From a virus, in IMG/VR virus record IMGVR_UViG_3300042876_000717, positions 1 through 44,843 of that record: a stretch of DNA of 44,843 nt. One strand, written 5' to 3'. Positions within the stretch are counted from its first letter, which is position 1. Every line of letters begins with the position of its first letter. Positions 1 through 19,086 of the stretch are shown here, piece by piece. Below the pieces are notes generated by a model. That model saw nothing but the letters and a program-made list of their open reading frames with translations, made no database searches and was not told the DNA's origin. The translations under genes and the position numbers were made by a program.

Positions 1-127
1 ACGACCGCGGCGCCGGGGACGAAGACGTAGCACTTGCCCGCGGTCACGCCGGGGTAGGACAGGGTCTTCTTGCCGATGACCACGCCGTCGTTGATGCCGC
101 CGTCGTACTCGATGATGTTGGCGATCG
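1..127. repeat. Terminal direct repeat, left copy (circular join)
   Basis: These 127 bases are identical to 44717-44843. The copy lies inside the major capsid gene, and the reading frame is kept when the two ends are merged, so this is an assembly overlap of a circular or circularly permuted molecule and not a biological long terminal repeat. Confidence 0.95.
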
Positions 128-1013
128 GGAGGCCGGGCCGGTTCGAGGCGCGCACTCCGGATCCGTTGCCGTTGAGCTGGCCGCGGATCACGTTCTCGAT
201 CTGCCAGCTATCGGCGCTGTTGCAGAGAATCGAGATCGAGGGGACCACGATCTTCTTGAGAGTCTGGAGGTCCTTCAGGCCGCGGAGCTTCTTGATCGCG
301 GCGACGAAGGTCTCGTAGGTCTTCTCGTCCAGGGACAGCCCGGACGTGGTGACGGCCGCCTGTTGCTGGGAAGCCACGAAGGTGGCGCCAACGATGTAGC
401 CGATGATGGCGGCGTTGCGCGCGTCGACGTCGGCGTCGATGGCGGCCTGGACGACCTTGTCCATGGTGAAGAAGCGGTTCCAGAGCATGTTCGCCAAGGA
501 ATCCTTCCAGCCCACGGCCTTGATCGCCAGGGTCAGGGTGTCGACGTCGCCCTCGTGCTGCTGGATGAGCGGTACCGCGTCGTTCTCTCCGGAGATGGTC
601 GCCATCTCGCCGCGGAATTTGAGGACGTCCCGGAGGTTGATGACTTCGGCGAAGTCGAGGTTCGTTTCCTCGCGGGCGATGAGGCTCGTGAGGTCCGGCG
701 CCTCGAGGGCGCGGCGCGTGATGTCCAGGAAGAACTTCCCGAAGAACGCGTCGATGGCGGCGTACCCGGGATCGGACTCGGCGTTGAGCACGCGCCCGGC
801 CTCGTCCGCCGACTTGAACGCGTTCACGATCCTGAAGCGCAAGCGCTCCAGATCGTCGCTGTTCTCGGCGACCTCGAACCGCTCGGCGAGCAGCCGGTGG
901 TCCCTCGAGTGGAAGTTGGCCTGCATGTTCCCGCGGAACGCGAGAGCCACGTTGACCTTCTTCGCCATTTCCTTGCGCTCCTCGGCGAGGGTGGCGCTGT
1001 TGTAGATTTTCAT
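1..1013 (-). CDS. Major capsid protein, N-terminal 337 codons (continues at 44533-44843)
   Basis: The gene begins at ATG 1013, with AAGGAG about 8 bases upstream, and runs off the left end. Joined through the 127-base overlap it continues to the stop at 44533, giving 1197 bp and 398 residues. The product starts MKIYNSATLAEERKEMAKK and contains a long alpha/beta body typical of HK97-fold capsid proteins. I infer the function from size, position just after protease/scaffold and decoration genes, and overall composition; no single diagnostic motif is visible. It would form the icosahedral shell after scaffold-assisted assembly. In linear coordinates it is split by the window ends, not truncated. 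Confidence 0.8.
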   Translation of the reverse strand, partial: MKIYNSATLAEERKEMAKKVNVALAFRGNMQANFHSRDHRLLAERFEVAENSDDLERLRFRIVNAFKSADEAGRVLNAESDPGYAAIDAFFGKFFLDITRRALEAPDLTSLIAREETNLDFAEVINLRDVLKFRGEMATISGENDAVPLIQQHEGDVDTLTLAIKAVGWKDSLANMLWNRFFTMDKVVQAAIDADVDARNAAIIGYIVGATFVASQQQAAVTTSGLSLDEKTYETFVAAIKKLRGLKDLQTLKKIVVPSISILCNSADSWQIENVIRGQLNGNGSGVRASNRPGLPIANIIEYDGGINDGVVIGKKTLSYPGVTAGKCYVFVPGAAV

Positions 1014-1945: not shown

Positions 1946-3274
1946 TTACTTCCTCCCGATCTTGTGGGTGACGATCCCGTCCCCGGCTTCGCCCTGCGCG
2001 CCGTCGCGGGACTCGCTGCGCAGGATCCTGTTGAATCCCGAGTTGCCGTCGGCGCGGTTGCGCGCGATGTCCAGCATGATCGGGTCCTTCTTCGCGTTCT
2101 CGATCGCGGCCGTGAGATCCTCCCCGCGCTTGCCCGCGCAGAGTTCCATGGCGCGGAGATGGAGCGAGTTCGGCACCTTCTCCTTCGCCACGTTCTCGAT
2201 CTCCTTGGCCCCGAAGGCCGCGGTGACCGCGTTCTCGACGGTGGCGTCGGCGTTGGCCTTGTTCTCGGCCAGGATGGCCTCGAGCCGCTCGAGGGGCTTG
2301 TCCCCGAGTTTGGCGTTCAGCGCCTTCACGGTCTCCGCGTTTTTCTCGTCGGCCTCGTTCCGCAGGCTGGACTCGATTCCGAGATCTTTCACGATATCGG
2401 TGATCTTCTCCTTGCCGTTGGCGATGAGGTTCGAGAGCAGATTGACTGCCTCTTCTTTGTCCACGGTTTTCCTCCCGTTCTTGGATTTGTCGATCATGGA
2501 GATGAGTTCGCCCAGGGCGGAGCGGTCTTCGACCGAAGCGCGGGAGCACAGATGTCTCAGCGCGGTGCGGTAGACGCGGTCGTTCTGGATGGGATCCCCG
2601 ACGACGTTGGTTGATCTATCGAACTGCCCCGCCTCGATGAGCGCTTTTGCGGTATCGAAGTCGAAGGGCAGATTGTGAGAGTTGACGGTCTGGGCCATCG
2701 CGCCGGCTCCGTACTCGACGGCGTCGTTGCGCTCGTAACCCATGCTCGCGATGAAATGGCGGACCTGGATCTTGTTCCCCTTGTCGTCGCTCTCGGTCAC
2801 GACCTTGTAGTCGGGCGCGGTGACGAGGGAGAAATTGACGATCCCGGCCGCGGCGTCGCGGATGAACCCGGCATTGTCGGTGAAGTCGCCGGATTTTGGC
2901 ATGTAGATCTTCAGGTAGACGGTCCCGCTTTTCTTGTCCGCGTTCTCGTCGATTTTTCCGCCGACGGTATAGAAATCGCTTGCCGGGCGGGAGGTGTATT
3001 CATGGCCGCGCTTCGACCCCGGAATAGGCCGCTCCTTCATGACGTTCAGGAACGACTTGAAAAAGCTTGCGTCGTAGACGCCGCCGGACCCGTTGGCCGG
3101 GAAGTCGATGGCCTCGATCTTGAAGTAGGGGTCGGAGTCTCCCTTCGAAAGCGCTTCCCAGGCCTTGTTCGGGATAAGCGTCAGGATCGTATCGGACGCG
3201 GGAAGCGTCGCCTTTGAGCGGGCGTAGTTGAAAACGATCACGCCATCTGGCGCCTTGTTCTCTATGCGTTTCAT
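1946..3274 (-). CDS. Prohead protease with C-terminal scaffold-like region (Mu gpI type)
   Basis: The favoured start is ATG 3274 (442 residues), because AGGAGG lies six bases upstream and 11 bp separate it from the MuF stop; longer versions starting at 3280, 3289 or 3319 lack good spacing. Residues about 10-200 resemble the Mu I / S78-like capsid maturation proteases, with a GHEYTSRP block that could give the catalytic His and a NFSLVTAPDYKV block that could give the Ser. The second half (about 210-430) is highly charged and helical, as in protease-scaffold fusions that are cleaved out during head maturation. The catalytic residues are suggested, not proven. Confidence 0.65.
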   Translation of the reverse strand: MKRIENKAPDGVIVFNYARSKATLPASDTILTLIPNKAWEALSKGDSDPYFKIEAIDFPANGSGGVYDASFFKSFLNVMKERPIPGSKRGHEYTSRPASDFYTVGGKIDENADKKSGTVYLKIYMPKSGDFTDNAGFIRDAAAGIVNFSLVTAPDYKVVTESDDKGNKIQVRHFIASMGYERNDAVEYGAGAMAQTVNSHNLPFDFDTAKALIEAGQFDRSTNVVGDPIQNDRVYRTALRHLCSRASVEDRSALGELISMIDKSKNGRKTVDKEEAVNLLSNLIANGKEKITDIVKDLGIESSLRNEADEKNAETVKALNAKLGDKPLERLEAILAENKANADATVENAVTAAFGAKEIENVAKEKVPNSLHLRAMELCAGKRGEDLTAAIENAKKDPIMLDIARNRADGNSGFNRILRSESRDGAQGEAGDGIVTHKIGRK

Positions 3275-3285
3275 CGCCATCCTCC

Positions 3286-4323
3286 TCATGCCGCGGCCTT
3301 GTACTGCCCGGCGTACCATTTGTCGAGATAGTCCACGTCCTCGCCCTTAGCCCAGCGCGCGAGGTCGGAAACGAATTCGCCTTGATCGCGGAGATGCGGA
3401 CGGACTTCGCAGAAGCAGTTCGGATGGGGATAGGTAGGGACCTGGTCGGCCTCGTAGGGCCCACCATCCGCGAGCGCCTGGCAGTCGCAGTTCCAGTCCT
3501 GGCGTCCGGCCTGAAGCACCCAATCGAAGAGGCCGTCGCATCCAGGGTTCATCCGTCCGGCAAGGACGGCGGAATCCTGGAGGGAGGCGAAGAGCTCGGA
3601 GCGCACGAGGCGCACAGCCCGCCAGTCCACGTTCTTCGGGATCCGCTTGGCGAATTCCGCCGTTCCACGCTCGAGGGATCCCCAGCGCTGAAGAAGCGCG
3701 ACCTTGCCGTCGGTGGCATAGACCTGGATGTCTTTCGCGATCTTGAGCGGGTCCCTGCCCTGGGCGATGCCGGCGCTGATCGTAATCCGCATGCGCTCGA
3801 GCCAGTCAGCCCGGACGCCATCGCCTCCCCAGATCCGCGTGCTGAAGGTCTGGCCGTCGCCCCAGAGCCTGGAGACGAGCGAGGCCATGACGCGATCGTG
3901 AACCCCGGCGATGAGGCGCGACATGCCGGCGGCTGTGATGTCGTCAGCCCCCGCCCTCGAAGCCGCGGAGAGAACGTACTGGGCATCGACCTCGGGAAGC
4001 AGCGTCGCGGTACGGTCGATTAGTTCGGTGGTCGAGTCTTCGGTTCCTGATGCGAGCGCGTCGGCCGTTCTCGACAGCCGAGCGGCGATGCCCGCCCACC
4101 GCTCGGTCGTGAGCTCGGATAGCCCGCGCTCGAGCGAATCCTTGACGACGTCGGCCGCTTCGTCAGCCGCCTCGCGGTAGATGGCGGAGATCTTGCGCCG
4201 GGTCTCGAGATCCATCCGCGCCGCCTGCCGGCGGGCCGCGGTGTATTTCCGAGCGTATTCGCGGGCCGAAAGCGTGGCGTCGTTCGCGATGATCATGCCG
4301 GGGAACGCGATGATGTTGTTCAT
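3286..4323 (-). CDS. MuF/SPP1 gp7-type minor head protein
   Basis: 345 residues. The N-terminal two thirds are helical. The C-terminal third carries the typical MuF end: a WNCDCQALADGG segment followed by VPTYPHPNCFCEVRP, that is, two Cys-x-Cys pairs and a His likely to bind metal. In SPP1 and Mu, such proteins sit inside the head near the portal and help DNA delivery. Its start overlaps the portal stop by four bases (ATGA), so translation is coupled. No toxin or effector domain is fused to the C terminus. Confidence 0.8.
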   Translation of the reverse strand: MNNIIAFPGMIIANDATLSAREYARKYTAARRQAARMDLETRRKISAIYREAADEAADVVKDSLERGLSELTTERWAGIAARLSRTADALASGTEDSTTELIDRTATLLPEVDAQYVLSAASRAGADDITAAGMSRLIAGVHDRVMASLVSRLWGDGQTFSTRIWGGDGVRADWLERMRITISAGIAQGRDPLKIAKDIQVYATDGKVALLQRWGSLERGTAEFAKRIPKNVDWRAVRLVRSELFASLQDSAVLAGRMNPGCDGLFDWVLQAGRQDWNCDCQALADGGPYEADQVPTYPHPNCFCEVRPHLRDQGEFVSDLARWAKGEDVDYLDKWYAGQYKAAA

Positions 4324-5753: not shown

Positions 5754-7279
5754 GACTTGAACCTCCTCGCAAGGGCTGAGCCGACGGCGGTATTAGCGGG
5801 GGCGCTTCCGCGCTGCACCTGATACCCTGCCGACAGATTGTCGACTTGGTCGTCGTGGTCTTTCCCGGATCCGTCAAATCGCAAGAGCTCGTCGATCCAG
5901 TCGTTGTTCCACTCGCCGCGCTTGACATGGACATGGCCGGGAGCCGCGAAAATCGGCTCGAGCGGCGTTGCCCGCGCGCCCTTGTCTCCCTGCTCAATGA
6001 TCGCCGTCCAGGAGAATTCAGGGAGCGCCTTCTGGATGTACTCGAAGGCGTCCTTCGCGTCGAGCGAATGCCCGAGGGCCTGCCTGACGTAGACGCCGTC
6101 GGCCTTGGCGACGCCCTCGATGATGGGATCGCGACGGGCCGCGCCCTCGCGAGTGCGGGTGACGTTGGCGACGTAGAGATGCGGCACGTGGTCGCCGGGC
6201 TCGTCCTCGAATGCGAGGAGCGTCCCGCTCGTCCAGTCGGGATCGTCGCCGGCGCGTTGCTTGGCCGTGTGCGCGAGGTCCCATACGCGCATCCAGCGCT
6301 TGGTCGTATCGACGCGCATCTCGTCCTGCCAGTCGATCGTCGAAAGATCGAACCGGCCTCCTGTTCGAACGATGGGATTGCAGTCGAGCAGGGCTGAGGC
6401 CGAATAGGGCCCGAGCGTCGCGTACTGCGATTGGTACCAGGCCTCGTCGAAGCGCTCGAGGAACAGGTACTTTCCGGGGTAGGATCCCTCGCCCTTGTAG
6501 TCCGCAGCGCGCGCCGGGAAGGTGAGGATCCTGAACTGCGGGAAGTCGGGGTTCTCGGCCATCTCGCGCTTGATCCGGCCGTTGATGTCGTCGACGTGCC
6601 ATTGGGTTGCGAGCACGATGCAGATGCAGACCGGCGCGCGGCGCGTCATGAAGTCGTCGGTGAATGCCGCCCAGGTCTTGTCGCGGAAGATGCGGCTCTC
6701 GGCATCGGCGCGGCCGGCGCAGTAGTCGTCGAGCACGCCGAGGTGGAACCCGTTTCCCGTGAGGCCGGACTGAAGGCCAGAGGCGTAGAGGCGGCCGCCC
6801 GTCGGCTGCCCGGTATCGTCGACGAGGACCCAATCGTTTTTCTTGTTCGTCTCGCTTGAGAGCAGGACCTTAGGGTACAGGGCGCGGTACTTAGGCGATC
6901 GGGCGATGTTGCGGCCGAACGTCGAGAATGACGCGGCCAGATCGGCCTGGTAGGATACCTGCAGGACCTCTTTGTCGGGGAACTCGCCCAGGAAATGCGG
7001 CCCAAGGTACCGGCTGACGAGGTCGGTCTTTCCCGATCTCGGATGCACGGCGATCAGGATGTACGTGGACTCGCCGCGGCGGAAACGCTCGATGGCGCGG
7101 TCGATCTCGGCGCAGATGCGGCGTGTGTGGAAGCCGTGAAGGAACGGCTCTTTTTTCATCCAGGCATAGTCCATGAACGCCAGATGGCTCTGGCGAGCGG
7201 TATCGCGTGCCTCCTCCTCGAGGAGGGCGAGGAGTTCAATCTCCTCGTCAACTTCAAGGCGTTCGGCGACGTGGCTCAT
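5750..7279 (-). CDS. terL: Large terminase subunit (packaging ATPase and nuclease)
   Basis: 509 residues. ATPase: Walker A HPRSGKTD at residues 79-86, Walker B HLGVLDD at 179-185 and the coupling motif ATQWHVDD at 224-231. RNase H-fold nuclease: Asp334 in RVWDLAH, Glu429 in AIIEQGDKG and the acidic cluster DHDDQVD at about 474-480. The enzyme pumps DNA through the portal and cuts concatemers. The start overlaps the small terminase stop (ATGA). All key residues are present, so it appears functional. Confidence 0.95.
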   Translation of the reverse strand: MSHVAERLEVDEEIELLALLEEEARDTARQSHLAFMDYAWMKKEPFLHGFHTRRICAEIDRAIERFRRGESTYILIAVHPRSGKTDLVSRYLGPHFLGEFPDKEVLQVSYQADLAASFSTFGRNIARSPKYRALYPKVLLSSETNKKNDWVLVDDTGQPTGGRLYASGLQSGLTGNGFHLGVLDDYCAGRADAESRIFRDKTWAAFTDDFMTRRAPVCICIVLATQWHVDDINGRIKREMAENPDFPQFRILTFPARAADYKGEGSYPGKYLFLERFDEAWYQSQYATLGPYSASALLDCNPIVRTGGRFDLSTIDWQDEMRVDTTKRWMRVWDLAHTAKQRAGDDPDWTSGTLLAFEDEPGDHVPHLYVANVTRTREGAARRDPIIEGVAKADGVYVRQALGHSLDAKDAFEYIQKALPEFSWTAIIEQGDKGARATPLEPIFAAPGHVHVKRGEWNNDWIDELLRFDGSGKDHDDQVDNLSAGYQVQRGSAPANTAVGSALARRFKS

Positions 7280-7923
7280 TCGGCGCCCTTTTTCTTGAGC
7301 AGGGCGGCAATGCGAGCCTTACGCTCGGCGGAGGAGAGAAGTGAAACATCAACGGGGCCGCCATCGGGCCCGGTCACTTCGTGGCGATTGCGCCACCGCG
7401 CCGGCCGGCGGTTGTTCAGCCAATAGATCTGGGCCGTGACGTCTGGCGGGCAATGCTCGATGGTCGCCAATCGCTCAACGTGAGAGCCGAGTCCCTGGCC
7501 ATCGCTGACCGTAAGGATTTTCTCGGAATCGTAATTATAACCAGTTGCCCGCTGGAAAAGACTTGCCTCGACAAGATCGTCCGGGCCGTCCTTACCTCGC
7601 TTTAGGGACTCCGAAAATTCTGGGTGTTGCTTTTTCCAGAGGTGCAGCGTTGACTCGGCGACCCCGATCTTCTCGGCAATCTGCTTATCGGTCCGGCCGG
7701 CCGTTGCCCAGGCTTCGGCGAGCGCGGGATGGAATCCGGGATCGTAATCGGTCGGCCGGCCGACCTTCGGCTTCTCGGCGGCAGTCCTCTTCGGCGCGCT
7801 CTTTGGCGTCGTTCGCGCGATAGAGGGTGCCGAAGCACGAGCGCGCGTCTTCGCCGCTACTTTACCAGTAGCAACGTTCTTCGCGCTCGCCTTCGTCTTT
7901 CCTGCCGCCTTAGCCTTGGCCAC
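7276..7923 (-). CDS. terS: Small terminase subunit
   Basis: 215 residues from a GTG start. Residues 1-65 are a basic Lys/Ala/Thr-rich tail that may contact DNA. Residues about 68-115 form a helix-turn-helix (DKQIAEKIGVAESTLHLWKK), followed by the CPPDVTAQIYWLNNRRP segment common in small terminases. It recognises the packaging site and recruits TerL, encoded directly downstream. The 24-bp direct repeats just upstream (8028-8083) are candidates for its target. Confidence 0.85.
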   Translation of the reverse strand: MAKAKAAGKTKASAKNVATGKVAAKTRARASAPSIARTTPKSAPKRTAAEKPKVGRPTDYDPGFHPALAEAWATAGRTDKQIAEKIGVAESTLHLWKKQHPEFSESLKRGKDGPDDLVEASLFQRATGYNYDSEKILTVSDGQGLGSHVERLATIEHCPPDVTAQIYWLNNRRPARWRNRHEVTGPDGGPVDVSLLSSAERKARIAALLKKKGAE

Positions 7924-8170
7924 CAGTTCCGCCTTTGGCTAGTCCCCTAGCCTCTCAGTTCGGAAGGTGCGCCGATGAAACTATTTTGGCAAGCCCCCTA
8001 TTTTCAGCCCTTTTTGCTTGCTCTATTCGCGCTTTATGTATCAATCGTCGCAATTCAAGCGCGCTTTATGTATCAATCGTCGCGATACGTGCAATTTAAT
8101 TACACTATCCGCAATATATTTCACCATACGATTTTCGCATTTTTCTGCATTTTCTTCCCGAAACCTCTCA
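7924..8170. other. AT-rich noncoding region upstream of terS
   Basis: This 247-bp gap is markedly richer in A+T than its surroundings and holds two direct repeats (separate entry). Leftward promoter-like pieces such as TTGCAC followed 16 bases later by TACATA are weak. No convincing terminator or ORF is seen. The region could be the packaging site, a late promoter, or both. Confidence 0.6.
8028..8083. repeat. Pair of 24-bp direct repeats (32-bp period) beside terS
   Basis: The copies at 8028-8051 and 8060-8083 are identical over 24 bases and contain GCTTTATGTATCAATCGTCG. They repeat with a 32-bp period, that is about three helical turns, as expected for sites bound side by side by one oligomeric protein. 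Position next to the small terminase suggests a pac/cos element; a late-operon operator is the alternative. Confidence 0.75.
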
Positions 8171-9127
8171 TCAGGCCGAGGATTCCGCCCGCTCCTTGAG
8201 CCATTCGCCGAACTGGACGTCGTATTCCCAGAGGGCGCCGCAGGCTAGGCAGCGGCCGCCTCCGGGTATCATCTCTGAGATCTTCCCCTGCTTTTCGCAG
8301 TCGCAGGACGGCGGATCGGGGATAGAGGCCTTCGGGCGTTCCTGTGTTTTCTCTGCGTTCAGAGCCTTGAAAGCTGCTATCACGTCCTCGTCGTGCATGA
8401 TCTTCCTGGCGTAGGCCTCGGGATTTCCTGGCTGCTTCTTCCGGGCCTTCACTCGAGCCAGGGCGAAGGCGAAGAGGTCGTCTTCCGAGGGGGAAATCTC
8501 TGAAAGGGCAGCAGGGGGATTTTCGCTTTCTCGCGCGTCCCCTCCTCCCCCCTTACGTAGAGATTTCGGAGAAAAGAGAACCTCCTCTTTCTTTTCAGTT
8601 TCACCTTCCCCTTCCTTTCCCCTTCCTTTCCCCTTCCCCTTGTCGGCATTTCCATGGAGTCTATCGGGATTTCCACGGAGGTTATCGGCTTTTCCTCCGA
8701 GGAAATCGCCTTTTTCTGGGGGGATATTTTCTGGCATGAATTTCGGGTAGGTAATACCAGGGAGATAATCGAGGCAGGTACGCTTCAAAGTATCCCTGGC
8801 AATCTTGAAATATCGCTTCTGAATTCCCCTCCCTGTGATGACTCCATGGGCCTCAAAAATAGCCCTATCGAGGAGCTCTTTATCGAAAAGATACTCGATC
8901 ACTTCATGGACCCATGCCACCTCTTCTTTGATCTCGTCAGCGAAAAGAAGCTCGGTCTCTTCGTTCCAGATGCGGTAGTAATTTTCCCTGTAGATCGAGG
9001 ACCAGAGCTCGGTCAAAAATCCTGCCCCGCGGCAAGCGCCGAACTTCGCCTTCACAAGTTTTACGGATGTATCCCATGCAGTATCGAGAGGAAAGTAGTC
9101 GAGGCCTTTTTCTGCGATGCGTCCCAT
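8171..9127 (-). CDS. DUF4373 (Lin1244/Lin1753-like) replication-associated protein
   Basis: 318 residues, with GGGGGAA just upstream of ATG 9127. Residues 1-110 match the DUF4373 pattern (EKGLDYFPLD, KAKFGACRGAGFLTELWSSI, YYRIWNEETELLFADEIKEE), which is found in phage replication initiators and DnaD-like helicase loaders. A low-complexity Gly/Lys/Glu linker follows at about 135-185. The C-terminal 45 residues hold CDCE...CLACG, a likely zinc-binding tail. The coding sequence also contains three 21-bp tandem repeats, described separately as an origin candidate. The replication role is inferred from family and context. Confidence 0.65.
   Translation of the reverse strand: MGRIAEKGLDYFPLDTAWDTSVKLVKAKFGACRGAGFLTELWSSIYRENYYRIWNEETELLFADEIKEEVAWVHEVIEYLFDKELLDRAIFEAHGVITGRGIQKRYFKIARDTLKRTCLDYLPGITYPKFMPENIPPEKGDFLGGKADNLRGNPDRLHGNADKGKGKGRGKEGEGETEKKEEVLFSPKSLRKGGGGDARESENPPAALSEISPSEDDLFAFALARVKARKKQPGNPEAYARKIMHDEDVIAAFKALNAEKTQERPKASIPDPPSCDCEKQGKISEMIPGGGRCLACGALWEYDVQFGEWLKERAESSA
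8643..8720. repeat. 21-bp iterons inside the replication gene, with adjacent polypyrimidine tract (origin candidate)
   Basis: Three consecutive 21-bp copies (8643-8663, 8664-8684, 8685-8705) share TCGG..TTTCC...GAG, and a partial fourth starts at 8706. They are in frame and encode related heptapeptides (RGNPDRL, HGNADKG). An almost pure C/T tract lies next to them at about 8580-8642. Iterons within an initiator gene followed by a strand-biased tract are the layout of the lambda O origin. Confidence 0.5.
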
Positions 9128-9141
9128 GTATTCCCCCAGTA

Positions 9142-9525
9142 CTAAAACTCAGTCTTTCCCTTGATCGTCACCGTGATCCGCGTCTCGCTCGATCCGTACT
9201 TATCAAGCCATTGATTCGTGAACACTATTCCGTGATCGCATTCGTGATCGATCCCGATCTCAATGGGCCCAAAGAAAAGTGCCGCCCCTATTTTGAAATC
9301 CCCGCGGTAGGGAAGGAATGAAAGCCCGGATCCGTGATACTCGTAGATTTCAGCGGAACCATAAAGGCGTAAGCATTTGAAGGCCTCGGCGTTGACGCCT
9401 AGTTCGGCGACGTAGGCGGTCTCCAAGAGCTTCACGACGGCGACGTCTGCCTGCTCGTAGATGGTCTCGGATTGCTTCGGAACGATGCCGAGCGTGAGAT
9501 ACCACGCGACGATTAGCCAGCTCAT
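9142..9525 (-). CDS. Hypothetical protein with hydrophobic N terminus
   Basis: 127 residues. The first 15 residues (MSWLIVAWYLTLGIV) form a short hydrophobic segment that could be a membrane anchor or signal. The rest is mixed alpha/beta with no recognised motif. Its start overlaps the stop of the 46-residue upstream gene (ATGA), so it belongs to the recombination operon. Function unknown. Confidence 0.6.
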   Translation of the reverse strand: MSWLIVAWYLTLGIVPKQSETIYEQADVAVVKLLETAYVAELGVNAEAFKCLRLYGSAEIYEYHGSGLSFLPYRGDFKIGAALFFGPIEIGIDHECDHGIVFTNQWLDKYGSSETRITVTIKGKTEF

Positions 9526-9662
9526 GCCGCCCTCCTTTTCTGCTTGCTAACCGGTCGCGCCGGCCGTATCCGACGCTTCCGCTGGTACACGATACGCGCG
9601 TCGATCTCGTCGAGAATTTCCTTGATGATCTTGTCGACGGGATCGGCGGCGTAGTGGGTCAT
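9522..9662 (-). CDS. Small basic protein of 46 residues
   Basis: This short ORF starts at ATG 9662 and overlaps both neighbours by four bases (ATGA at each end), which strongly supports its reality. The product begins MTHYAADPVDKIIKEILDEI and ends in a very basic tail (QRKRRIRPARPVSKQKRRAA), suggesting nucleic-acid binding. It would be cotranslated with the SbcD-SbcC fusion operon. No family recognised. Confidence 0.65.
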   Translation of the reverse strand: MTHYAADPVDKIIKEILDEIDARIVYQRKRRIRPARPVSKQKRRAA

Positions 9663-9904
9663 GGTTCCTTCTCCAATAGCTCAGGCTGTACCGCCCCTGG
9701 GCCCAAGACTTCCTCGTCGAACATTTTCTCGAGCTTCGCGCGTTCGACCTCGGGGATCTTGTATTTCTTCATTAGGTCGAACGCGGCGAGCTTCATCCAT
9801 GCCGACTCAGGATGCCGCCCGCCGACGTGCTTGTAGCGGGCGTAGATCCAGGCCTCGCGGTATTCGTCGAGGCGCAAGGAGTAGGAGATCCCGGGGACCT
9901 TCAC
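9659..9904 (-). CDS. Hypothetical 81-residue protein
   Basis: The product has aromatic/basic blocks (YREAWIYARYKHVGG) and a helical C terminus (IPEVERAKLEKMFDEEV). It overlaps the fusion gene upstream and the 46-residue gene downstream by four bases each, so it is translated as part of the same operon. No recognised motif. Confidence 0.65.
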   Translation of the reverse strand: MKVPGISYSLRLDEYREAWIYARYKHVGGRHPESAWMKLAAFDLMKKYKIPEVERAKLEKMFDEEVLGPGAVQPELLEKEP

Positions 9905-12900
9905 GCTGCCTTCTCCTTCTGTGAAACGCGCGGCCCCAGCGTCGCGACGTCGATCGTCTGCTCGACCATCGCCTGCAACTCTTTCGAATGGGTGACGATA
10001 ATGGTCTGGAAACGCCCGCTCGCGGCGTGTTCGGCCTCGAGCATGCGTAGGTACATCATCCGCGATTCGGGATCCAAGGCTCCGTCGGCCTCGTCCAAAA
10101 AGACGGTCTGGAAGCGGGTATCTGTGTTCCGCGCCCGGATGATGGCGAAGGCCGCGTACAGGGCCTTGCGGATCCAGACTGCTTCTCCGCCGGAGAGCGT
10201 CGCGATCTCCTGCTCGTCGCCGGTCTCGGTATCGAGGACGAAGATTTCGAAATCCTCGACCTGCTTGGTCTTCGAGCCCTTTCCCGCGATCCTGGTGGTC
10301 CTGAACTCGAGCTGGTAGCGGCTCCCGAAGGCGCCCGAGAGGATCTTGTTGGCCTCGTCGGAGATGGACGGCGCGAGGGCGTCGAGCTTGAGCGCCGGGA
10401 TCCCGTCTGGCCCGAACGCGCGTTCGAGGATGCGCCAGTCGGTGAGCTCAAGCGCGGCCGCGTCCTTCTTCCGTTTCGCCTCCTCCTGGGCCTCGAGGCG
10501 TTTCGCCGCGGCTTCGATCCCGCGGGCGGCGCTCTCGGCGGTAGCCTTGGCGGCAGCCGATTCGGCCATCAGGCTCGAAAGGCTGGCCCTGGTCGCGTCG
10601 AGTTCGCGATCCTTGAACGTGAGCTCGTCTTTTGCCTTCTGGACCGATTCCGGGGTCGCCTTGATGCTCAGTCCCTCGGACTCGAGCTTCTCGAGCCGGC
10701 CATGGGACTCGTCGATCCGGCGGGTAGCCTCCTCTATCCTGACGTCGGCCTCGTCGGCTTTCCGGATCGTCGTCTCGGCGCCGGCGCGGTCAAGGAAAGC
10801 AAGCGCCTCCTCGACTTCCTCGAGCCGATCCTCGCGGGAGTATTCCTTCAGGACAGGGGTATCCGGGAAGACGATGGCGGATACGGCTGCCTCGGCCTCG
10901 GCGACTGCCTTCCGGGCATCCTGGACCTCGCGCTTGAGCTTCCCGACCTCGACGGAGAGGATCTCCTGGGCCCGCCTGAGATCCGAGAGCTTGTCCTCGG
11001 GTAGCCGTTGGCCGCAGGTCGGGCAAGATTCGACGATGGGCCCGGAGATCTTACCCTCGGCCTTCGCGAGATCGGCTTCCTTGCGGGACAGCGCCGATCG
11101 CTTCGCGTCCAGGATGGCGCGTGCCTCGTCCTGCTTTCCGCGGGCTTCGGAGACCGCGACCTGGTAGGCCCGCTCCGCCGCCCGGTTTTCGCCCTCGACG
11201 TCCGCCTTCTCCGCCTTGAGACTCGCGAGCTCCGTCTCGTATTCGCCGATCTTCCCGAGCTGGGTTTCGGCTTCCGCCCTCCCCGCGGCCGCGCTTCGGA
11301 ATCCCTGGACCGCCTCGTCCTCAGCGTCGATCGCCCGCTGCAGGTCCGTGATCTCGCGGAGGATCTGGGCCCGGCGCGCCGCCTGTTGCTCAAGGGTCGA
11401 GACCGTGCCGGCTAAGACTTCCCTCTCCGCCCTGAGCCGGAGCCCGGTTTCCGTCGCCAGCGCCGCGCCCTGGTCGGCGCGCGCCGCCTTGGTTTCGGCT
11501 TCGGCTTTCTCGGCCTCAAGCCTGGCGATCGTCTCCGGCACGTCAGCGGCCGCCGCGATGGTCGCATCAAGCCCCTGGATCTCCCGGTCCAGGGCATCGC
11601 CCTTGGTCTTAGCCGTGCCGCGGAGCTCGTCATAGTAGTCGATGCCGGAGAGCTCGCAGAAAAGGGCTTTCCGTTGGCCCTTGGTGGCCTCCGAGAGATC
11701 GGGGGCGTACTTCGTCGGGCGCTGGGTAGCGAAGGCCGTCCGGAGGTAGAGCTCGAGCGAGCCGAAAAGATCGGCGATCGCCGCCTCGTATGGTTCCTTC
11801 CTCCCGTTCGTCCCCGGGTAGGGCTCGAAACCTGCTCCCTTGTCGACGGAGAGGAAGTACTCGGCACCGCCCGATGCGATCTCGGCACGGATGGAGATCT
11901 GGGCATGGTAGCGCCAGCCCGTCCGCTCGTCGGTGAAGTAGAGATCCCGGAAGGAATCCGCCAGGCGGAAGTGTTCCTTGAGCACGCCGTCCCGGGTGAG
12001 CATGCACGGCCAGGGGTGAAGGTTCTCAAGGAGGGTGGTCTTCCCCGCCCCGTTCCCGCCTACTAGGGCCAGGACGCCCGGGCCGTAGCTCGAGAGGTCG
12101 AGGTCGATCTCGTCCTTCTTGGACTTCTTCCAGGTGCCGACGGCCCCGCGGAGTACGAGGCGATCAATCCGGATATGCGCGCCGGCCGTCCCCCGGGCCT
12201 GCTCGAGGATGAGTTCGTCCGCCTTCTTGAGGGCGTTCTCGGGGATGGTTACGCTGGAATTCCCGCCCCAGATCACGACCTCCTCCCGGAGACTCGCGGT
12301 CTCGGCGATCTCCGCCGCGCGAACCATTTCCGTCGGGAGGATGTTCAGGGTGACGCGGGAGCCAGGAAGGGCGCCGGATTCAATGAGCGCCGATAGTTCG
12401 CTCTCGGTGTCGAAGTTGGCAGCCCATGTGCGCGAGTCGGCTGTCCACTCCTCCCATACCAGCTTCCCGGAGATGGACGGGTCCTCCCAATCGACATTGT
12501 CTCCGGACGCCCGTGCGATCTTCATCCTCCTCGGGTGCGGGAAGTCGATTCTGACGACGAGCGTCTCGAATCCCGCTGGACGGTCGAAAAGAGGATCAGC
12601 GCTCTTGATCCCTGGGAAAGCATCGATCCTGACCTCATTGCAGCCGGCCTGATGCGTCTCGCCCCAGCTCGCGGGGTAGATGCTCCCAGGGTAGTAGGCC
12701 GGCAGGTCTCCGACCTGCTGGGGTTCGTGGATGTCACCAAGGGCTAAATAGTCAGCCCCCACAGCCGCGAGGTCGTCGCGCGAAACCGCGATCCCGGAGC
12801 CTGCCTTATAGCCCGTTCCGGTTCTGGCGCCTGATACCTGCCCGTGGTAGAGTAGGACGCAGGGGAGATCGGCGTGCTCTCTTCTCATCCCGCCAAGGCC

Positions 12901-13389
12901 GAGAAAGAGGGCTCGCATCGCAGCGCGGACGGCTTCGTCGGACGCGTCCTTCCCTGTGGCTTCCTGGTTTGCCAGGAGCCACTTTTTATTTGGCTCGGGT
13001 ACTCCGAAGAGAAGGAGCTCGGCCCCTCCCTCTCGGGCCCCGTCAAGCGCTCCGCCGTGGTTGAGGAAGTATGCCTTCCCAGGCCGGAGGATGACGATAG
13101 GAAAGCGCGCCTGCAGCCGCTCAAAGACTTCGAGCGAGCCTGGGGCATCATGCGTAGGGGTCCCGTAGATGAGAGCGACCGGCGCGAGGTCCGCCAGGCG
13201 CTGGATCCTTCCCGCCAGGGCGTCGAAGATATCCCGCTCCGTGTTCTGGAGCGGGCCGTCTGCCAGGTCGCCCGAGATCGCGATGAGATCGACGCCAGCG
13301 GCCGATGCTTCGACGACGTCGAGCGAGACCTGAACCTCTGCCCAATGCTCGCGGCAGGCATGGACGTCTGCTAGGTGGATGATCTTCAT
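9901..13389 (-). CDS. SbcD-SbcC (Mre11-Rad50-type) fusion: nuclease and ABC ATPase in one chain
   Basis: A 1162-residue uninterrupted ORF. Residues 1-260 are an SbcD/Mre11-type metallophosphoesterase: HLADVH (Asp8, His10), ISGDLADG (Asp41), His80/Asp81, His182 and a GDIH block at 218-221. Two family motifs differ: the usual GNHD is GTPTHD and GHIH is GDIH. Residues about 260-400 resemble the capping domain. Residues about 400-560 are the Rad50 N-lobe with Walker A GGNGAGKTT at 444-452. Long coiled coils flank a zinc hook CPTC at 789-792. The C-lobe has the LSGGEA signature near 1065 and FLDEADG (Walker B) near 1100. SbcCD and T4 gp46/47 process DNA ends during recombination and are normally two proteins. 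The next gene upstream overlaps its start and encodes a possible annealing protein. Confidence 0.9.
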   Translation of the reverse strand: MKIIHLADVHACREHWAEVQVSLDVVEASAAGVDLIAISGDLADGPLQNTERDIFDALAGRIQRLADLAPVALIYGTPTHDAPGSLEVFERLQARFPIVILRPGKAYFLNHGGALDGAREGGAELLLFGVPEPNKKWLLANQEATGKDASDEAVRAAMRALFLGLGGMRREHADLPCVLLYHGQVSGARTGTGYKAGSGIAVSRDDLAAVGADYLALGDIHEPQQVGDLPAYYPGSIYPASWGETHQAGCNEVRIDAFPGIKSADPLFDRPAGFETLVVRIDFPHPRRMKIARASGDNVDWEDPSISGKLVWEEWTADSRTWAANFDTESELSALIESGALPGSRVTLNILPTEMVRAAEIAETASLREEVVIWGGNSSVTIPENALKKADELILEQARGTAGAHIRIDRLVLRGAVGTWKKSKKDEIDLDLSSYGPGVLALVGGNGAGKTTLLENLHPWPCMLTRDGVLKEHFRLADSFRDLYFTDERTGWRYHAQISIRAEIASGGAEYFLSVDKGAGFEPYPGTNGRKEPYEAAIADLFGSLELYLRTAFATQRPTKYAPDLSEATKGQRKALFCELSGIDYYDELRGTAKTKGDALDREIQGLDATIAAAADVPETIARLEAEKAEAETKAARADQGAALATETGLRLRAEREVLAGTVSTLEQQAARRAQILREITDLQRAIDAEDEAVQGFRSAAAGRAEAETQLGKIGEYETELASLKAEKADVEGENRAAERAYQVAVSEARGKQDEARAILDAKRSALSRKEADLAKAEGKISGPIVESCPTCGQRLPEDKLSDLRRAQEILSVEVGKLKREVQDARKAVAEAEAAVSAIVFPDTPVLKEYSREDRLEEVEEALAFLDRAGAETTIRKADEADVRIEEATRRIDESHGRLEKLESEGLSIKATPESVQKAKDELTFKDRELDATRASLSSLMAESAAAKATAESAARGIEAAAKRLEAQEEAKRKKDAAALELTDWRILERAFGPDGIPALKLDALAPSISDEANKILSGAFGSRYQLEFRTTRIAGKGSKTKQVEDFEIFVLDTETGDEQEIATLSGGEAVWIRKALYAAFAIIRARNTDTRFQTVFLDEADGALDPESRMMYLRMLEAEHAASGRFQTIIVTHSKELQAMVEQTIDVATLGPRVSQKEKAA

Positions 13390-14507
13390 TAGGATGCCTT
13401 CTTTCTGGTGGCGATGATTCCCGCCGCCTTTTCAGCCATGCTCCGCAGGATGATCGGATCCTTCGGGGTCTTCTCGAGTACGCCGATGCAGGACTTGAGG
13501 CCCTCGTCCCGGAGGAACCCCGACGCGACGGCGCTGATGATCGAAAGCGACGGCTCGAGCACGGTGACCTCGATCTCGTCCCGGTCGATGATTGCTTGGG
13601 CGAGCCTAGCCGCTTCCTTGTTCTCGGACAACGTCCAGTCCATGAGCGCGTTGCGGATCTCGCCGATGAGTTCGGCGTCCTTCGCGGGGGTCGCCCGTTC
13701 GCGCTCGAGATGGAAGTCGTCTTCGCCCGCCGGCGTGGTCCTATGCGAGGCTCCCTCGGCCGGCTTCATGTCCGGCTCGCGATCCTTCGGCGCCTGGATC
13801 TGGGTGACGCCTTGCGGGCCGTAGAGCGCCGCCACGTTCCCGCCCATGCTGTCGAGCATCCGGTTCATGACGAGCTCATTCTTGGCGTTGACGATGATCC
13901 GGGAGAAAAGGAAGGTCCTCATCGCGGTCGGAGGTTCATTCTTTTCGAATAAACCGCGGATTCCTGTGGGCATGCCAAGGATTGAAACCGTTGCTCGGTT
14001 TCGCGCGCCCGTGTTCGCCCTCTGGCGCCCGACCTTGCGAAAGTTGATCCTCTCTTTTTTTAGCTCCAAATCGGAGTAAGCGACCTTCCCGGGACGGCCG
14101 CGTGCGTCCTTGTTGTCCCAATCGGCCTTGCCGTTGAGTTCCATCTCCGTAGTTCGCGTCTCAACGTCGAACTCGTACTCGCAGGCTGAGCCTAGGATCA
14201 TCTTCCCGTCGGGACCCATAACCATCGCCTGGGAGCGTCCGACGTAGCATCCCTCTCCCTCCATCCGAGTTGACTCGGCCGCCTCGTTGTACGAGACCCC
14301 GGCCGCTGAGGCAAACTTATCGAGGGTTTCCTTTCGGGGCATATAGGCTTTGCCGCCGTCCATCTCGTGGAACTCGTCCTTCCTGACCTCGATCGCCTCG
14401 ATGTGAACCTCGAGGAGCGGCGATAGTTCCTCGAGATGTGATGGCTTCACGAAGCTCTTCGCGTTCGGGAATTTTGCGATGAACTCGCGGGCTTTGTCGG
14501 GGGTCAT
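13389..14507 (-). CDS. Possible RecT-like single-strand annealing protein
   Basis: The favoured start is ATG 14507 (372 residues), with AAGGAG upstream; a longer ORF reaches 14588 without a ribosome site. The N-terminal half has KAYMPRKETLDKFASAAGV, then GCYVGRSQAMVMGPDGKM and a RANTGARNRATVSILGM block. This order loosely resembles RecT-like annealing proteins, in which a substrate-binding region is followed by an RAeTkA..R helix. The C terminus (about 255-372) is helical. It overlaps the SbcD-SbcC fusion by one base, and a nuclease next to an annealing protein is the usual phage recombination pair. The annealing role is inference; it could be another DNA-binding protein. Confidence 0.4.
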   Translation of the reverse strand: MTPDKAREFIAKFPNAKSFVKPSHLEELSPLLEVHIEAIEVRKDEFHEMDGGKAYMPRKETLDKFASAAGVSYNEAAESTRMEGEGCYVGRSQAMVMGPDGKMILGSACEYEFDVETRTTEMELNGKADWDNKDARGRPGKVAYSDLELKKERINFRKVGRQRANTGARNRATVSILGMPTGIRGLFEKNEPPTAMRTFLFSRIIVNAKNELVMNRMLDSMGGNVAALYGPQGVTQIQAPKDREPDMKPAEGASHRTTPAGEDDFHLERERATPAKDAELIGEIRNALMDWTLSENKEAARLAQAIIDRDEIEVTVLEPSLSIISAVASGFLRDEGLKSCIGVLEKTPKDPIILRSMAEKAAGIIATRKKAS

Positions 14508-14526: not shown

Positions 14527-14763
14527 TCAGGCCGCATCGAATGCGTCGACCATCGAACCCGGGTCGACATTCGGGCAATACGATCCATCGCAGATTTCCG
14601 TGAGCGCGCAACGTTCGCAGGGCAGAAGAGGATTCCCGTCCTCAGCGAGCCCGAGCGCTGCCTGTACTTCGGCGATCGTCGTCGGCGGATCCTTGAAGAA
14701 ATCGCGCCATGCGGCCTTCGCCTGATCGGGGATGCGCTCAGCGAGCGCGTTCGTGTCCATCAT
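14527..14763 (-). CDS. Small cysteine-rich (probable zinc-binding) protein
   Basis: 78 residues from ATG 14763, with AAGGAG six bases before it and a four-base overlap with the upstream stop. The C-terminal half has four cysteines spaced C-x2-C-x5-C-x4-C (CERCALTEICDGSYC), a likely metal-binding knuckle. The N-terminal half is helical. It sits in the recombination operon. Function unknown. Confidence 0.65.
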   Translation of the reverse strand: MMDTNALAERIPDQAKAAWRDFFKDPPTTIAEVQAALGLAEDGNPLLPCERCALTEICDGSYCPNVDPGSMVDAFDAA

Positions 14764-15572
14764 CTCCAGCTCCTTTCGACGATCTTGATCTTGATGTTCT
14801 CGCCGATGATCGCTCCCTCGGGACCGTACAGGTTCAACTTGTTTCGGACCTCGTCGGCGAGCCAGTAGTGGGTATTTCCGTTTTTGTGAACCGTGAATGA
14901 AAACCAGTCGCACTTGAAGGTGTCGATCTTCTTCAGGCGCATCTCATCCTTCGCCGTCTTATCCGGGACGGCCTTTCCCGCGAGGATGTAGCAGACCTTT
15001 TCCAGGTCGTCCGTTACCGTCGGGGTGCCGTAGGAGTAGCCGAAGATCGTGGAGTAGTCGCGCGTTGAGAGGATGAAGCGCTCGTCGATCCCGTTATTAT
15101 TCCGCTTCTTCTCGGGCGCCCTATACCCGCTTCCGGTGTGATAGGTCCCCTCCGTGATCTCGGCGAAGACCTTCTTCACGAGGGTGCGGACGTTGTCCTG
15201 GATGAGGCCCTTCAAGGAGGCCAGCCAGGCCTCCGCGTTTTCCTGGGTGAACTTCGGCGTGCGGCACTGCGCGATCTCCTCGCGCATCTTCTTGTGGTCC
15301 GTGCAGAGCATGTACTTTTCGAGGCTGAAAAGCCGGGAGAGATAGGTCCAGCACGCCTGGTCGACGCTCTTCTCCGCGTCGTCGCAATGGTCGAAACGGT
15401 AGAACCGGTAGGCCTCGATGAGTTCGAAGTCCTTCCCGATGAGGTCATCGAGCCCGAACATAGCCTTGGCGTTGGCCAGGATCCGCGCCTTGATCGCGCA
15501 GAGCCCAGCTACGTCGAGGCGGACCTGGGGCAGGTCCTCGGCATTGTCGTCGAATCGGTCCAGGGCTGTCAT
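14760..15572 (-). CDS. DUF4942-like protein
   Basis: 270 residues. The end of the protein (CDWFSFTVHKNGNTHYWLADEV followed by RNKLNLYG) and the internal block NVRTLVKKVFAEITEG match the DUF4942 pattern, a family found in phages and plasmids and sometimes attached to methyltransferase-related proteins. Its biochemical role is not known. It is the second gene after the strong leftward promoter and overlaps both neighbours by four bases. Confidence 0.6.
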   Translation of the reverse strand: MTALDRFDDNAEDLPQVRLDVAGLCAIKARILANAKAMFGLDDLIGKDFELIEAYRFYRFDHCDDAEKSVDQACWTYLSRLFSLEKYMLCTDHKKMREEIAQCRTPKFTQENAEAWLASLKGLIQDNVRTLVKKVFAEITEGTYHTGSGYRAPEKKRNNNGIDERFILSTRDYSTIFGYSYGTPTVTDDLEKVCYILAGKAVPDKTAKDEMRLKKIDTFKCDWFSFTVHKNGNTHYWLADEVRNKLNLYGPEGAIIGENIKIKIVERSWR

Positions 15573-16119: not shown

Positions 16120-16608
16120 TCACAGAATCACCAGCTTCCCTGGTAGACCTGAGGCCGCGATTGATTCGACGTTCCCCTCCCCGTAGGCGATAAGGCAAGA
16201 CGGGGCCCCTGCGTTCGCACGCGCCCGGGTTCCGTCCACATGATGGAAAAACAGCCGACCATGAAAGAAGAAAACCGCGTCCGCGCGATCCCATACCCAT
16301 TTCCTGAACATCAGCGTTTCCGTCCTGGCGAAAATGAGGGAGATGGCGTTCCCGTGTTGGAAGCACTTCGCCAGCCACTTCGCGGCCGTGTTCCCGTATG
16401 GCGGGTTGCACCATACGCGAGCCCCCCCCCACGGCTGCATGAGGCCATCGTCTTGGATGGTGTAGTGCCTGGCGGCGGTATCCCAGGGCCTAGCGATAGG
16501 CGCGCAGGGGTCTAGGTCGAAGCGCCCGAGGGCCTGGATGATCTCCGGAGGAGTGAGCCATTCGTCTTTCCCCATGGCCGCCGATTGATGCCCGCCCATG
16601 CCCTTCAT
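16120..16608 (-). CDS. Phage DNA N6-adenine methyltransferase (Dam-like)
   Basis: 162 residues from ATG 16608, which overlaps the helicase stop by four bases; a start at 16638 is also open. DEWLTPPEIIQALG and FDLDPCA (about residues 30-36) are typical of the compact phage Dam family, and the catalytic motif NPPYG is at 68-72. It would methylate adenine N6 in phage DNA, most likely to escape restriction. The gene ends two bases before the convergent RHH gene stop. No partner restriction gene is seen. Confidence 0.9.
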   Translation of the reverse strand: MKGMGGHQSAAMGKDEWLTPPEIIQALGRFDLDPCAPIARPWDTAARHYTIQDDGLMQPWGGARVWCNPPYGNTAAKWLAKCFQHGNAISLIFARTETLMFRKWVWDRADAVFFFHGRLFFHHVDGTRARANAGAPSCLIAYGEGNVESIAASGLPGKLVIL

Positions 16609-18179
16609 ACCGGGTACTTCTCCTTCAGCCAGGCCCATTGCTTGGCCAGCTCCTCCGTCGTGCAGTCCTCCCGCGCCTTCCCCCCTACCGTCTCCTTGAG
16701 CTTCCGAAAAAGGATCTTCGACATGGGCCCCTTCGACCCCGGCCGCATCCTCCCCAGGACGATCTCGAGGTGACGGGCGATCTGGTTCCGGAGGAGGTGC
16801 TCTGCCGCAGAGGGCGTCAGGCCTCCATCTGGCTTGGCCATCTCAGGGGAATCTGCTTCCGTCTTATCGAATGGCTCAAACGTCCCGCCGCTCAACCGGA
16901 TCGCTTCCGATCGCAAGGGCTGGATCCACTTCCTGGCCTGCCCGCCCTGCCCCTCTGATTCCTCGCCGGCTGTACCGCCTTCGCGCTCAGCGCGGTCCTT
17001 TAGGGCCTGGACCTGCTCAGCCTCGATTGAGGCGATTGCGGCGCGAAAGCGTTCGTCATTTGGGCCGTAGACGTAGCCGGCGATCTTCCCGGGCGCGGTG
17101 CGGTTGGCGCGGGCAAAGCATTGCTCGAGCCAGGGGATGCTCCTGATATGGGTCAGGCATGCGATATGGGTGACGGCAGGGACGGAGAGGCCTTCATAAC
17201 ACATTCCGACGCTATCAAGGGCGTCCACTTCTGGAGCGGCCTGCCCCTTGAATCGTGCGATGGCCATACGCGCCGCCGCGTCATCGTCAGAGGTGGCGAT
17301 CAAAGCGTCTATTTTCCGTCGGTGCAGGTGGTCCTGGTAGGTCTTGGCCAGGGCAATGGAAGGCGCGACGACCAGGAGCTTCGCCCCCGGGTAGACCGAG
17401 GCGCGGTGCCGGCGCCAGTCGGCGACGGTCTCGTCCAGGAGCTCCAGGGCGTATTCGGTCCGGAGCGCCGTGAAGAGCGCTTGGGCGGCGTAGTCGCCCC
17501 CGGCCAGGGATCCAGCGGAGCGGCGCCCCCCTTCCTCCTCCCATTCGGTCCTGCCGTCCAGGTAGCGGAATTCCACCGGGACGATGGCGCCCTCCCGGAG
17601 CGCATCCCCGCGGGAGTAGATGACCGCGGCCTTCCCTGGACCTGAGAATACGGGCTGCCCGTCATGGTAGTCGAGGCCGGCTATGGCCTGCCCGTCGCCG
17701 CGGGCAAAGGTCCCGGAGGCGTAGACGACCAGGCCAGCAGCTTCCTCTAGCGGAGCGATAGCGGTATCCCAGGGCCCTCCCTTAAGTCGGTGATGCGGCT
17801 CGTCGAGGAAGAGGATGAACCGGCGCCCGCGGAGCGCCTGCTGGTGGAATACTGGATCCGCGACGATGGCCTGGTAGGTGGTGATATAGCCCGCGTATCC
17901 TCGGAAGGGATCGCCCGAGTTCCCGGCCGCGCGGATCCTGAACCCGCGCCTGCTCCAGGAGGCGAAGTCCGCCTCGCCCTGGTCGCGGAGGGAATTCCTG
18001 GGGACGACCCAGACGATCGAATCGAAGCCATGGCCGATAAGGATGTCGGAGAGGATCGGAGGCAGCGCGCTTTTCCCGCCTCCAGGGGTAACCGCGGCAA
18101 AAATCTTCTTGATCGCCTCGCCCTCGTGGATCCTTCGGGCCATGGCTTCGATCTCGGCCTGATGCTTGCGAAGGATCAT
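16605..18179 (-). CDS. SF2 DEAD/DEAH-type helicase
   Basis: 524 residues from ATG 18179, selected because it overlaps the stop of the zinc-ribbon gene (ATGA); a longer ORF to 18287 overlaps that gene. Motif I TPGGGKS is at 31-37, motif II DEPH at 126-129, motif Ia/Ib-like VVPRNSLRDQG at 58-68, and motif VI is seen in QCFARANR in the C-terminal RecA-like domain. The C-terminal 140 residues are helical with low-complexity Glu/Gly. Such phage helicases act in replication or recombination. It is translationally coupled to the methyltransferase. Confidence 0.85.
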   Translation of the reverse strand: MILRKHQAEIEAMARRIHEGEAIKKIFAAVTPGGGKSALPPILSDILIGHGFDSIVWVVPRNSLRDQGEADFASWSRRGFRIRAAGNSGDPFRGYAGYITTYQAIVADPVFHQQALRGRRFILFLDEPHHRLKGGPWDTAIAPLEEAAGLVVYASGTFARGDGQAIAGLDYHDGQPVFSGPGKAAVIYSRGDALREGAIVPVEFRYLDGRTEWEEEGGRRSAGSLAGGDYAAQALFTALRTEYALELLDETVADWRRHRASVYPGAKLLVVAPSIALAKTYQDHLHRRKIDALIATSDDDAAARMAIARFKGQAAPEVDALDSVGMCYEGLSVPAVTHIACLTHIRSIPWLEQCFARANRTAPGKIAGYVYGPNDERFRAAIASIEAEQVQALKDRAEREGGTAGEESEGQGGQARKWIQPLRSEAIRLSGGTFEPFDKTEADSPEMAKPDGGLTPSAAEHLLRNQIARHLEIVLGRMRPGSKGPMSKILFRKLKETVGGKAREDCTTEELAKQWAWLKEKYPV

Positions 18180-18337
18180 CCCCTCCGCCTCTGCCCGCAC
18201 TTGACGCATTCCTCCGTCGTCACCATGCCCCGCGACGAACAAGACACCCGGTGGAGATGGGCGTCTATGCGCTGAAGATCGACGCATGAGGGCGTCGGTT
18301 TAGGCGGGTTCGGGACGATGTTTAGGATATCTTTCAT
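18176..18337 (-). CDS. Small zinc-ribbon protein
   Basis: 53 residues from ATG 18337, with AAAGGGG just upstream. Cysteines and histidines occur as C ... HLHRVSCSSRG ... ECVKCGQRRRG, a probable treble-clef or ribbon metal site. It starts immediately after the terminator at 18351-18409 and overlaps the helicase start, so it may be the helicase partner. No specific family recognised. Confidence 0.6.
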   Translation of the reverse strand: MKDILNIVPNPPKPTPSCVDLQRIDAHLHRVSCSSRGMVTTEECVKCGQRRRG

Positions 18338-18848: not shown

Positions 18849-18874
18849 GAAAACTCCTTTCGCCTTTCGGCGTA

Positions 18875-18968
18875 TGGGGAAGGGGGGATTCGAACCCCCA
18901 CAACGCTCGGCCAAAGCGCCTTCTTCTCCGCTCCTATGAGCGGCGGTCTGCCAATTCCCTACATCCCC
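18875..18968 (-). tRNA. tRNA-like element, Leu(UAG)-like class II, with short anticodon loop
   Basis: 94 bases. Acceptor GGGGATG/CTTCCCC pairs at six of seven positions, discriminator A; the D-arm holds the leucine-type AATTGGCAGA; the variable arm is CGCT-TTGGCCG-AGCG; the T-arm is GGGGG-TTCGAAT-CCCCC. The anticodon stem CCGCT/AGCGG is perfect but encloses only six bases, CATAGG, with TAG at the anticodon place and A instead of the invariant U33. It is the best formed of the three elements. A tRNA search would likely score it low. Confidence 0.6.
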
Positions 18969-19086
18969 ATGATCCCTGGACCCGCGCCAGGGCGTCGCGT
19001 CGTCGGCTACCTCTTTGCCCATCCGAAGGGGGCCGCAGCCGGCTATGTGGGTAGAACATGGCTCTCAGGTCTTTCGACCAGGTACC

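Follow-up and report, generated by a model that had tools for sequence, protein, structure and literature searches.

The 44,843-base IMG/VR stretch analysed here (the window) carries an uninterrupted open reading frame, 9901-13389 on the minus strand, that opens with an ATG and encodes SbcD (Mre11) and SbcC (Rad50) joined in one 1162-residue protein without an internal stop (see table). As the original prediction stated, the nuclease comes first and the gene is phage-borne: the window also holds large and small terminase, tape-measure, tail-fibre-like and integrase genes, which mark it as a tailed, probably temperate phage, and its relatives form a phage family. Sequence trees fit a single origin for these one-chain proteins, and the chain appears to have been broken again within the family, at a linker inside SbcD.

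Both halves of the protein are recognized by profile and by fold. Pfam detects SbcC_Walker_B (5e-7, passing the cut-off), Metallophos (5.6e-4, slightly below the cut-off) and, weakly, the Rad50 hook, and the protein matches the PHROG_77 SbcC family at 9e-40. Used as a single sequence, the fusion protein found no match in the PDB, and a family profile was required. Our 17-member profile matches Mre11 (3qg5, 1e-19), E. coli SbcD (4lty), Rad50 (3aux) and E. coli SbcC (6s6v_C), with Mre11/SbcD structures aligned to residues 1-86 and about 183-265, Rad50 to 440-642, E. coli SbcC to 643-1156 and the Rad50 hook crystal structure 1l8d to 752-845. An AF2 model of the fusion (pLDDT 80) resembles E. coli SbcD 4lty (TM on target 0.66) and the SbcC/Rad50 heads 7yzo_D and 3tho_A (0.67 and 0.64, TM on target, PDB). 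Lamassu and Wadjet structures also appear among the fold matches of this model.

Table. Features of the one-chain SbcD-SbcC gene and its neighbours in the window
Feature	Residues	Position	Strand	Evidence or remark
SbcD-SbcC (Mre11-Rad50) single-chain fusion gene	1162 aa	9901..13389	-	Pfam, PHROG, family profile, AF2 fold
SbcD/Mre11 phosphoesterase core	1-258	12616..13389	-	profile, fold, motifs by eye
Core residues D8, H10, D41, H80, H182, D219/H221	within 1-258		-	motifs by eye
Altered motif III GTPTHD (canonical GNHD)	76-81	13147..13164	-	profile, alignment
Core-to-cap linker	259-272	12574..12615	-	split point of L017, L072, L086, L087
SbcD cap domain and C-terminal helices (HLH)	273-397	12199..12573	-	AF2 secondary structure, conservation
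SbcD-SbcC junction linker (~7 residues)	398-404	12178..12198	-	AF2
SbcC N-lobe	405-613	11551..12177	-	Pfam, profile, AF2
Walker A GGNGAGKT	444-451	12037-12060	-	inside SbcC N-lobe
Ascending coiled coil	617-781	11047..11541	-	AF2
Zinc hook CPTC	789-792	11014..11025	-	profile match to 1l8d Rad50 hook
Descending coiled coil	798-991	10417..10998	-	AF2
SbcC C-lobe	997-1155	9925..10401	-	Pfam, PHROG, profile
C-lobe signature LSGGE	1065-1069
C-lobe Walker B VFLDE	1096-1100
C-lobe H-loop	H1134
Annealase-like (SSAP-like) gene, PHROG_13782	399 aa	13389..14588	-	upstream of fusion
Small open reading frame	81 aa	9659..9904	-	overlaps fusion end by 4 nt
ResIII helicase gene		16605-18287		beyond upstream gene

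The expected Rad50-like elements can all be read in the protein: Walker A, signature, Walker B and H-loop of the bipartite ABC head are present, and the modeled helices form an antiparallel coiled coil with the CPTC hook at its apex. The SbcD half shows the motifs DVH (residues 8-10), GDLAD (40-44), GTPTHD, H182 and GDIH (218-221) by eye, followed by a cap and helix-loop-helix region in which positions 339-347, 354-361 and 389-390 are conserved in the alignment. In published work, the Mre11 HLH binds the root of the Rad50 coiled coil, and the Mre11 C-terminus lies 28 Å from the Rad50 N-terminus, a gap estimated to need 9-12 extended residues to bridge (PMC3175470). The seven non-helical junction residues of our model, together with the helix ends, come close to this estimate. 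The stretch from residue 373 to 462 lacks any in-frame start codon (ATG, GTG or TTG), so it is unlikely that SbcC with an intact N-lobe is translated from a start of its own. The sole candidate internal start for a free SbcC is GTG372, which has a GGAGG-like stretch 5′ of it; we did not count this stretch as a signal, since it itself codes for Arg-Glu-Glu and relatives often have Asp-Lys at that place.

The widest of our IMG/VR scans gave 47 related loci, which we sorted by the open frames that hold the SbcD core, cap, N-lobe and C-lobe. Including the window and named comparisons, the sorted set comprises 34 one-chain loci, 13 ordinary two-gene pairs (Leptospira phage LE1 and three plasmids account for four) and four loci of a third kind. 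Because the scan patterns were built from conserved SbcD stretches of the fusion family, the sample is biased, and these proportions are not a census of phages. The window is a metagenomic contig, and its E. coli, LE1 and plasmid relatives have two genes, so an assembly frameshift or lost stop could in principle conceal a gene pair. However, 33 further metagenomic phage contigs from other metagenomes (their IMG/VR sample numbers differ) keep the same junction uninterrupted at 35-93% identity, among those measured, and the nearest relative (L001/L043), also from a different metagenome, is 93% identical over the protein. The stretch from residue 380 to 410, where the original prediction had proposed looking for a hidden stop or frameshift, is open in all 34 fused loci. 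Together, these contigs in effect refute an assembly artefact.

In a tree of the SbcC N- and C-lobes (51 rows), the 34 one-chain and four third-kind proteins make up one side of a branch supported at 100/100, and all 13 ordinary two-gene pairs fall on the opposite side. A tree of the SbcD core, from which two long-branch rows were left out, gives the same separation (99/98), and an earlier, smaller set agrees with one fused clade. Several of the split SbcC/SbcD-type relatives outside this clade are adjacent gene pairs, with a 4-nt overlap in L084, LE1 and E. coli. With the fused phage proteins forming one clade in both trees, which were built from the sorted set of IMG/VR loci, LE1 and plasmids, the sequences fit one fusion event.

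The four loci of the third kind (L017; L086 and L087; L072) are all nested in the fused clade. In each, gene 1 encodes the SbcD core alone and gene 2 encodes the cap, HLH and SbcC, the break falling in one common short linker (window residues 256-275). What occupies the break differs: L017 has an open reading frame for an HNH endonuclease (Pfam HNH, 1.4e-5), and its sister L024/L062 is unbroken; the two genes of L072 overlap as ATGA; L086 has a small open reading frame in the break, and L087 has about 2 kb of small open reading frames. By parsimony, the tree positions suggest two to three independent re-splits within the clade, although L086/L087 and L072 may share one common re-split followed by re-fusion in their sisters. 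We lean, on balance, toward a reading in which the fusion served as a bridge state: the chain was later re-broken at least twice at the core/cap linker, leaving the cap and HLH on Rad50 for good and freeing the nuclease core. A limited search of the open literature found no such partition into core and cap-Rad50. The one-chain arrangement directly fixes a 1:1 stoichiometry, as anticipated, but the permanent tethering of nuclease to ATPase that was also proposed is not something the family always requires, given that the chain has been divided again within SbcD in close relatives.

Directly upstream of the fusion lies an annealase-like gene whose TAA stop overlaps the fusion ATG by 1 nt (taATG), and whose true start is likely M28 at 14507. 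A member of the same PHROG_13782 family immediately precedes SbcD in 30 of the 34 fused loci and in six split loci from phages; LE1 has a remote relative there. The family is missing from L086/L087, which instead have a Rad52_Rad22 protein (1e-21) upstream. For the window’s upstream protein, a model with pLDDT 77 gave no PDB fold match, Pfam gave no annealase match and tblastn gave no match in phages; the best named hits among viral models, RecT (2.6e-3) and ERF (9.5e-3), are weak and have low TM-scores. Assignment as an annealing protein is thus a good lead rather than proof. The position of this gene directly upstream, together with Rad52/22 in one sub-lineage, points to a module for end resection and annealing. 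Further neighbours include a DUF4942 gene and a DNA methylase gene, with a Lin1244-like replication initiator gene downstream. An Elusimicrobia host was considered and set aside: the sole match in a genome scan was one MAG with three pieces of fused copies, and the other 198 genomes drawn from the phylum had none, so binning contamination is possible and we claim no host.

Given the domains observed, the conservation of both reading frame and ATPase motifs, and the adjacent annealase-like gene, we consider it likely that the protein is a phage recombination enzyme, a one-chain equivalent of Mre11-Rad50 (SbcD-SbcC, T4 gp47-gp46) that resects ends for annealing with the upstream protein. T4 gp46/47 act in end resection (PMC3175470). 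Two chains would dimerize through their phosphoesterase cores, ATP-clamped heads and zinc hook into an M2R2-like assembly, and ATP binding and hydrolysis by the heads would admit and melt DNA ends. The tethered nuclease would then trim these ends and pass single-stranded tails to the annealase-like protein, so that the phage genome could recombine by annealing or replicate in a recombination-dependent manner. The fusion itself may have arisen once, in a phage operon whose nuclease and ATPase genes already overlapped, and would have been favoured because the ATPase is in any case where the cap and HLH of SbcD are seated.

Two points count against this recombination reading: the upstream protein matches no Pfam annealase and no PDB fold, and the nuclease site is altered. 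The phosphoesterase, predicted to be complete, is indeed full length, but it is not fully canonical: motif III reads GTPTHD rather than GNHD, and D219 occupies the H206 site of P. furiosus Mre11. Motif III is GTxxH[DE] in 33 of 34 fused proteins (L059 did not fit the pattern), with Thr replacing the metal-binding Asn of GNH[DE], and position 219 is Asp in 15 of the 34 and His in 19. With this Asn lost, nuclease activity may be reduced, changed or absent, and the protein could instead be an ATP-dependent DNA-end tether or hairpin opener with a degenerate nuclease, in which the Mre11 part mainly shapes and dimerizes the complex while another nuclease resects. We regard this as unlikely. D8, H10, D41, the catalytic H80, H182 and H221 are invariant in all 17 aligned fused proteins, which argues against decay, since a decaying site would lose them; moreover, mimivirus R555 also has Asp at the H206 site (PMC3175470), and split plasmid relatives share the altered motif (GTFSHE). 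Among split genes, motif III is GNHD in L085, L088 and LE1, GNxxHD in L076 and L081-L084, and GTxSH[DE] in L078, L079 and the plasmids. These variants can be read as a series in which an insertion widened the Asn-His spacing by two residues and Thr took the place of Asn; its presence in split genes indicates that the change precedes or is independent of the fusion. Mre11-type nuclease activity therefore stays part of the recombination reading as a prediction from motifs.

A role in counter-defence or defence, in which the phage SbcCD would attack or occupy DNA ends to counter a rival phage or the host's RecBCD or SbcCD, seems considerably less probable still. Pairs of an SMC-type ATPase and a nuclease are known in defence systems, Lamassu and Wadjet being among the fold matches, and the window, which has an integrase gene, is probably a temperate phage. 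Against this, membership in the SbcCD family is clear, and the gene lies within a block for replication and recombination (replication initiator, annealase-like gene, helicase) rather than in a region of variable defence cargo.

SbcC and SbcD are standard equipment of large phages (PMC7824862), and Mre11/Rad50 (SbcDC) fusions were reported in 2011 by Yoshida, Claverie and Ogata in mimivirus (R555), Bacillus phage 0305phi8-36, plasmids of Clostridium kluyveri and Deferribacter, and some eukaryotes (PMC3175470). By the criterion set in the original prediction, the novelty of a phage fusion is accordingly limited. We found no later work on phage SbcD-SbcC fusions or single-chain Mre11-Rad50 in the open-access literature. 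Like the window protein, the 2011 fusions are viral or mobile, place the nuclease first and SbcC second in one chain, and in most cases keep the cap and HLH; R555 likewise has H206 changed to Asp. They were reported as scattered, whereas the window family forms one clade in trees that exclude the 2011 sequences, and the Bacillus phage fusion lacks the cap/HLH and one P-loop segment that the window protein has. The nearest named phage match is LE1 gp75 (SbcD) and gp74 (SbcC), 31% identical over the C-lobe, which shares the gene order and a related upstream gene, gp76 (hhalign E 2.5e-5, probability 75%; hmmsearch 8e-6), but has two separate, overlapping genes and canonical motif III. Burkholderiales megaplasmid pairs (e.g. 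Burkholderia ubonensis pATCC31433) align over 97% of the query at 26-27% identity, with SbcD before SbcC and the altered motif III, but comprise two genes, often with a small open reading frame between them, and the gene upstream of the pair falls outside the annealase-like family. Escherichia coli SbcCD and T4 gp47/gp46 match the window in domains, order and folds (4lty, 7yzo), but are separate chains with canonical GNHD (H84 in E. coli), and the E. coli coiled coil is much longer. What is new here is the wide one-chain clade with a single origin, as the trees fit it, its probable repeated re-splits at the linker between core and cap, the series of motif III variants, and the annealase-like partner.

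Overall, if the bridge-state reading is correct, these phages offer a third way to divide the Mre11-Rad50 machine, with the break made through an HNH gene (L017), a small open reading frame or several kb of intervening genes (L086/L087), or a coupled start-stop overlap (L072). The cap would then be mechanically part of the ATPase, and separation of core from cap would be tolerated. The canonical split, one-chain and core/cap-Rad50 forms, with motifs conserved in the sequences read, constitute a natural experiment through which one could test which part of Mre11 has to stay attached to Rad50. Similarly, the GNHD, GNxxHD and GTxxH[DE] series provides natural variants on which the contribution of the metal-binding Asn can be tested, and the 1162-residue protein is a ready construct for structural and single-molecule work at fixed stoichiometry. 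The conserved annealase-like neighbour suggests a recombination module in which SbcCD, rather than a lambda-Exo-type nuclease, is paired with an annealing protein.

The SbcC lobes of the window protein and of its relative from locus L001 are almost identical (99%), and sharp differences between the two fall in patches of SbcD (window 12400-13080), at approximately residues 105-130 and in the cap at residues 250-335. This patchy SbcD difference looks as if it arose by recombination or local diversification.

Two related loci carry insertions within the SbcD-SbcC coding region. At L017 (IMGVR_UViG_3300038425_000062), an HNH endonuclease ORF (2819-3307) splits the gene precisely at the core/cap linker; in the close relative L024/L062 the gene runs without interruption. 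At L086 (IMGVR_UViG_3300028048_003180, ORF 6978-10805), an intein with a LAGLIDADG domain interrupts Walker A of the SbcC part (GQCGRGK^C...HN^STLIEN); the near-identical L087 lacks it.

Elsewhere in the window, ARAGORN called a tRNA-Glu (7182-7255, + strand) inside the terminase large subunit gene, which lies on the opposite strand; this call lacks Rfam support and is probably false.

Additional features of the window
Feature	Position	Strand	Remark
tRNA-Pro (agg)	18874-18969	-	Rfam support
DUF4942 protein, DNA methylase, ResIII helicase	14760-15572 and 16120-18287		Upstream of recombination genes

Three pieces of fused copies (contigs C286, C262 and C414, listed with the related locus L025) occur in one metagenome-assembled genome, Elusimicrobia bacterium STA_59, whose phylum was sampled with 198 further genomes, all of them negative. 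The STA_59 pieces possibly represent a host link, or else a binning error.

Most relatives share the zinc hook CPTCGQ. The hook of L013/L048 and L025 is longer and like the usual bacterial type (CPICGS..HP, CPLCGG..HP), and that of L012/L046 reads CPVDGEPC, without a CxxC motif. The coiled-coil apex seems to have been exchanged as a module.
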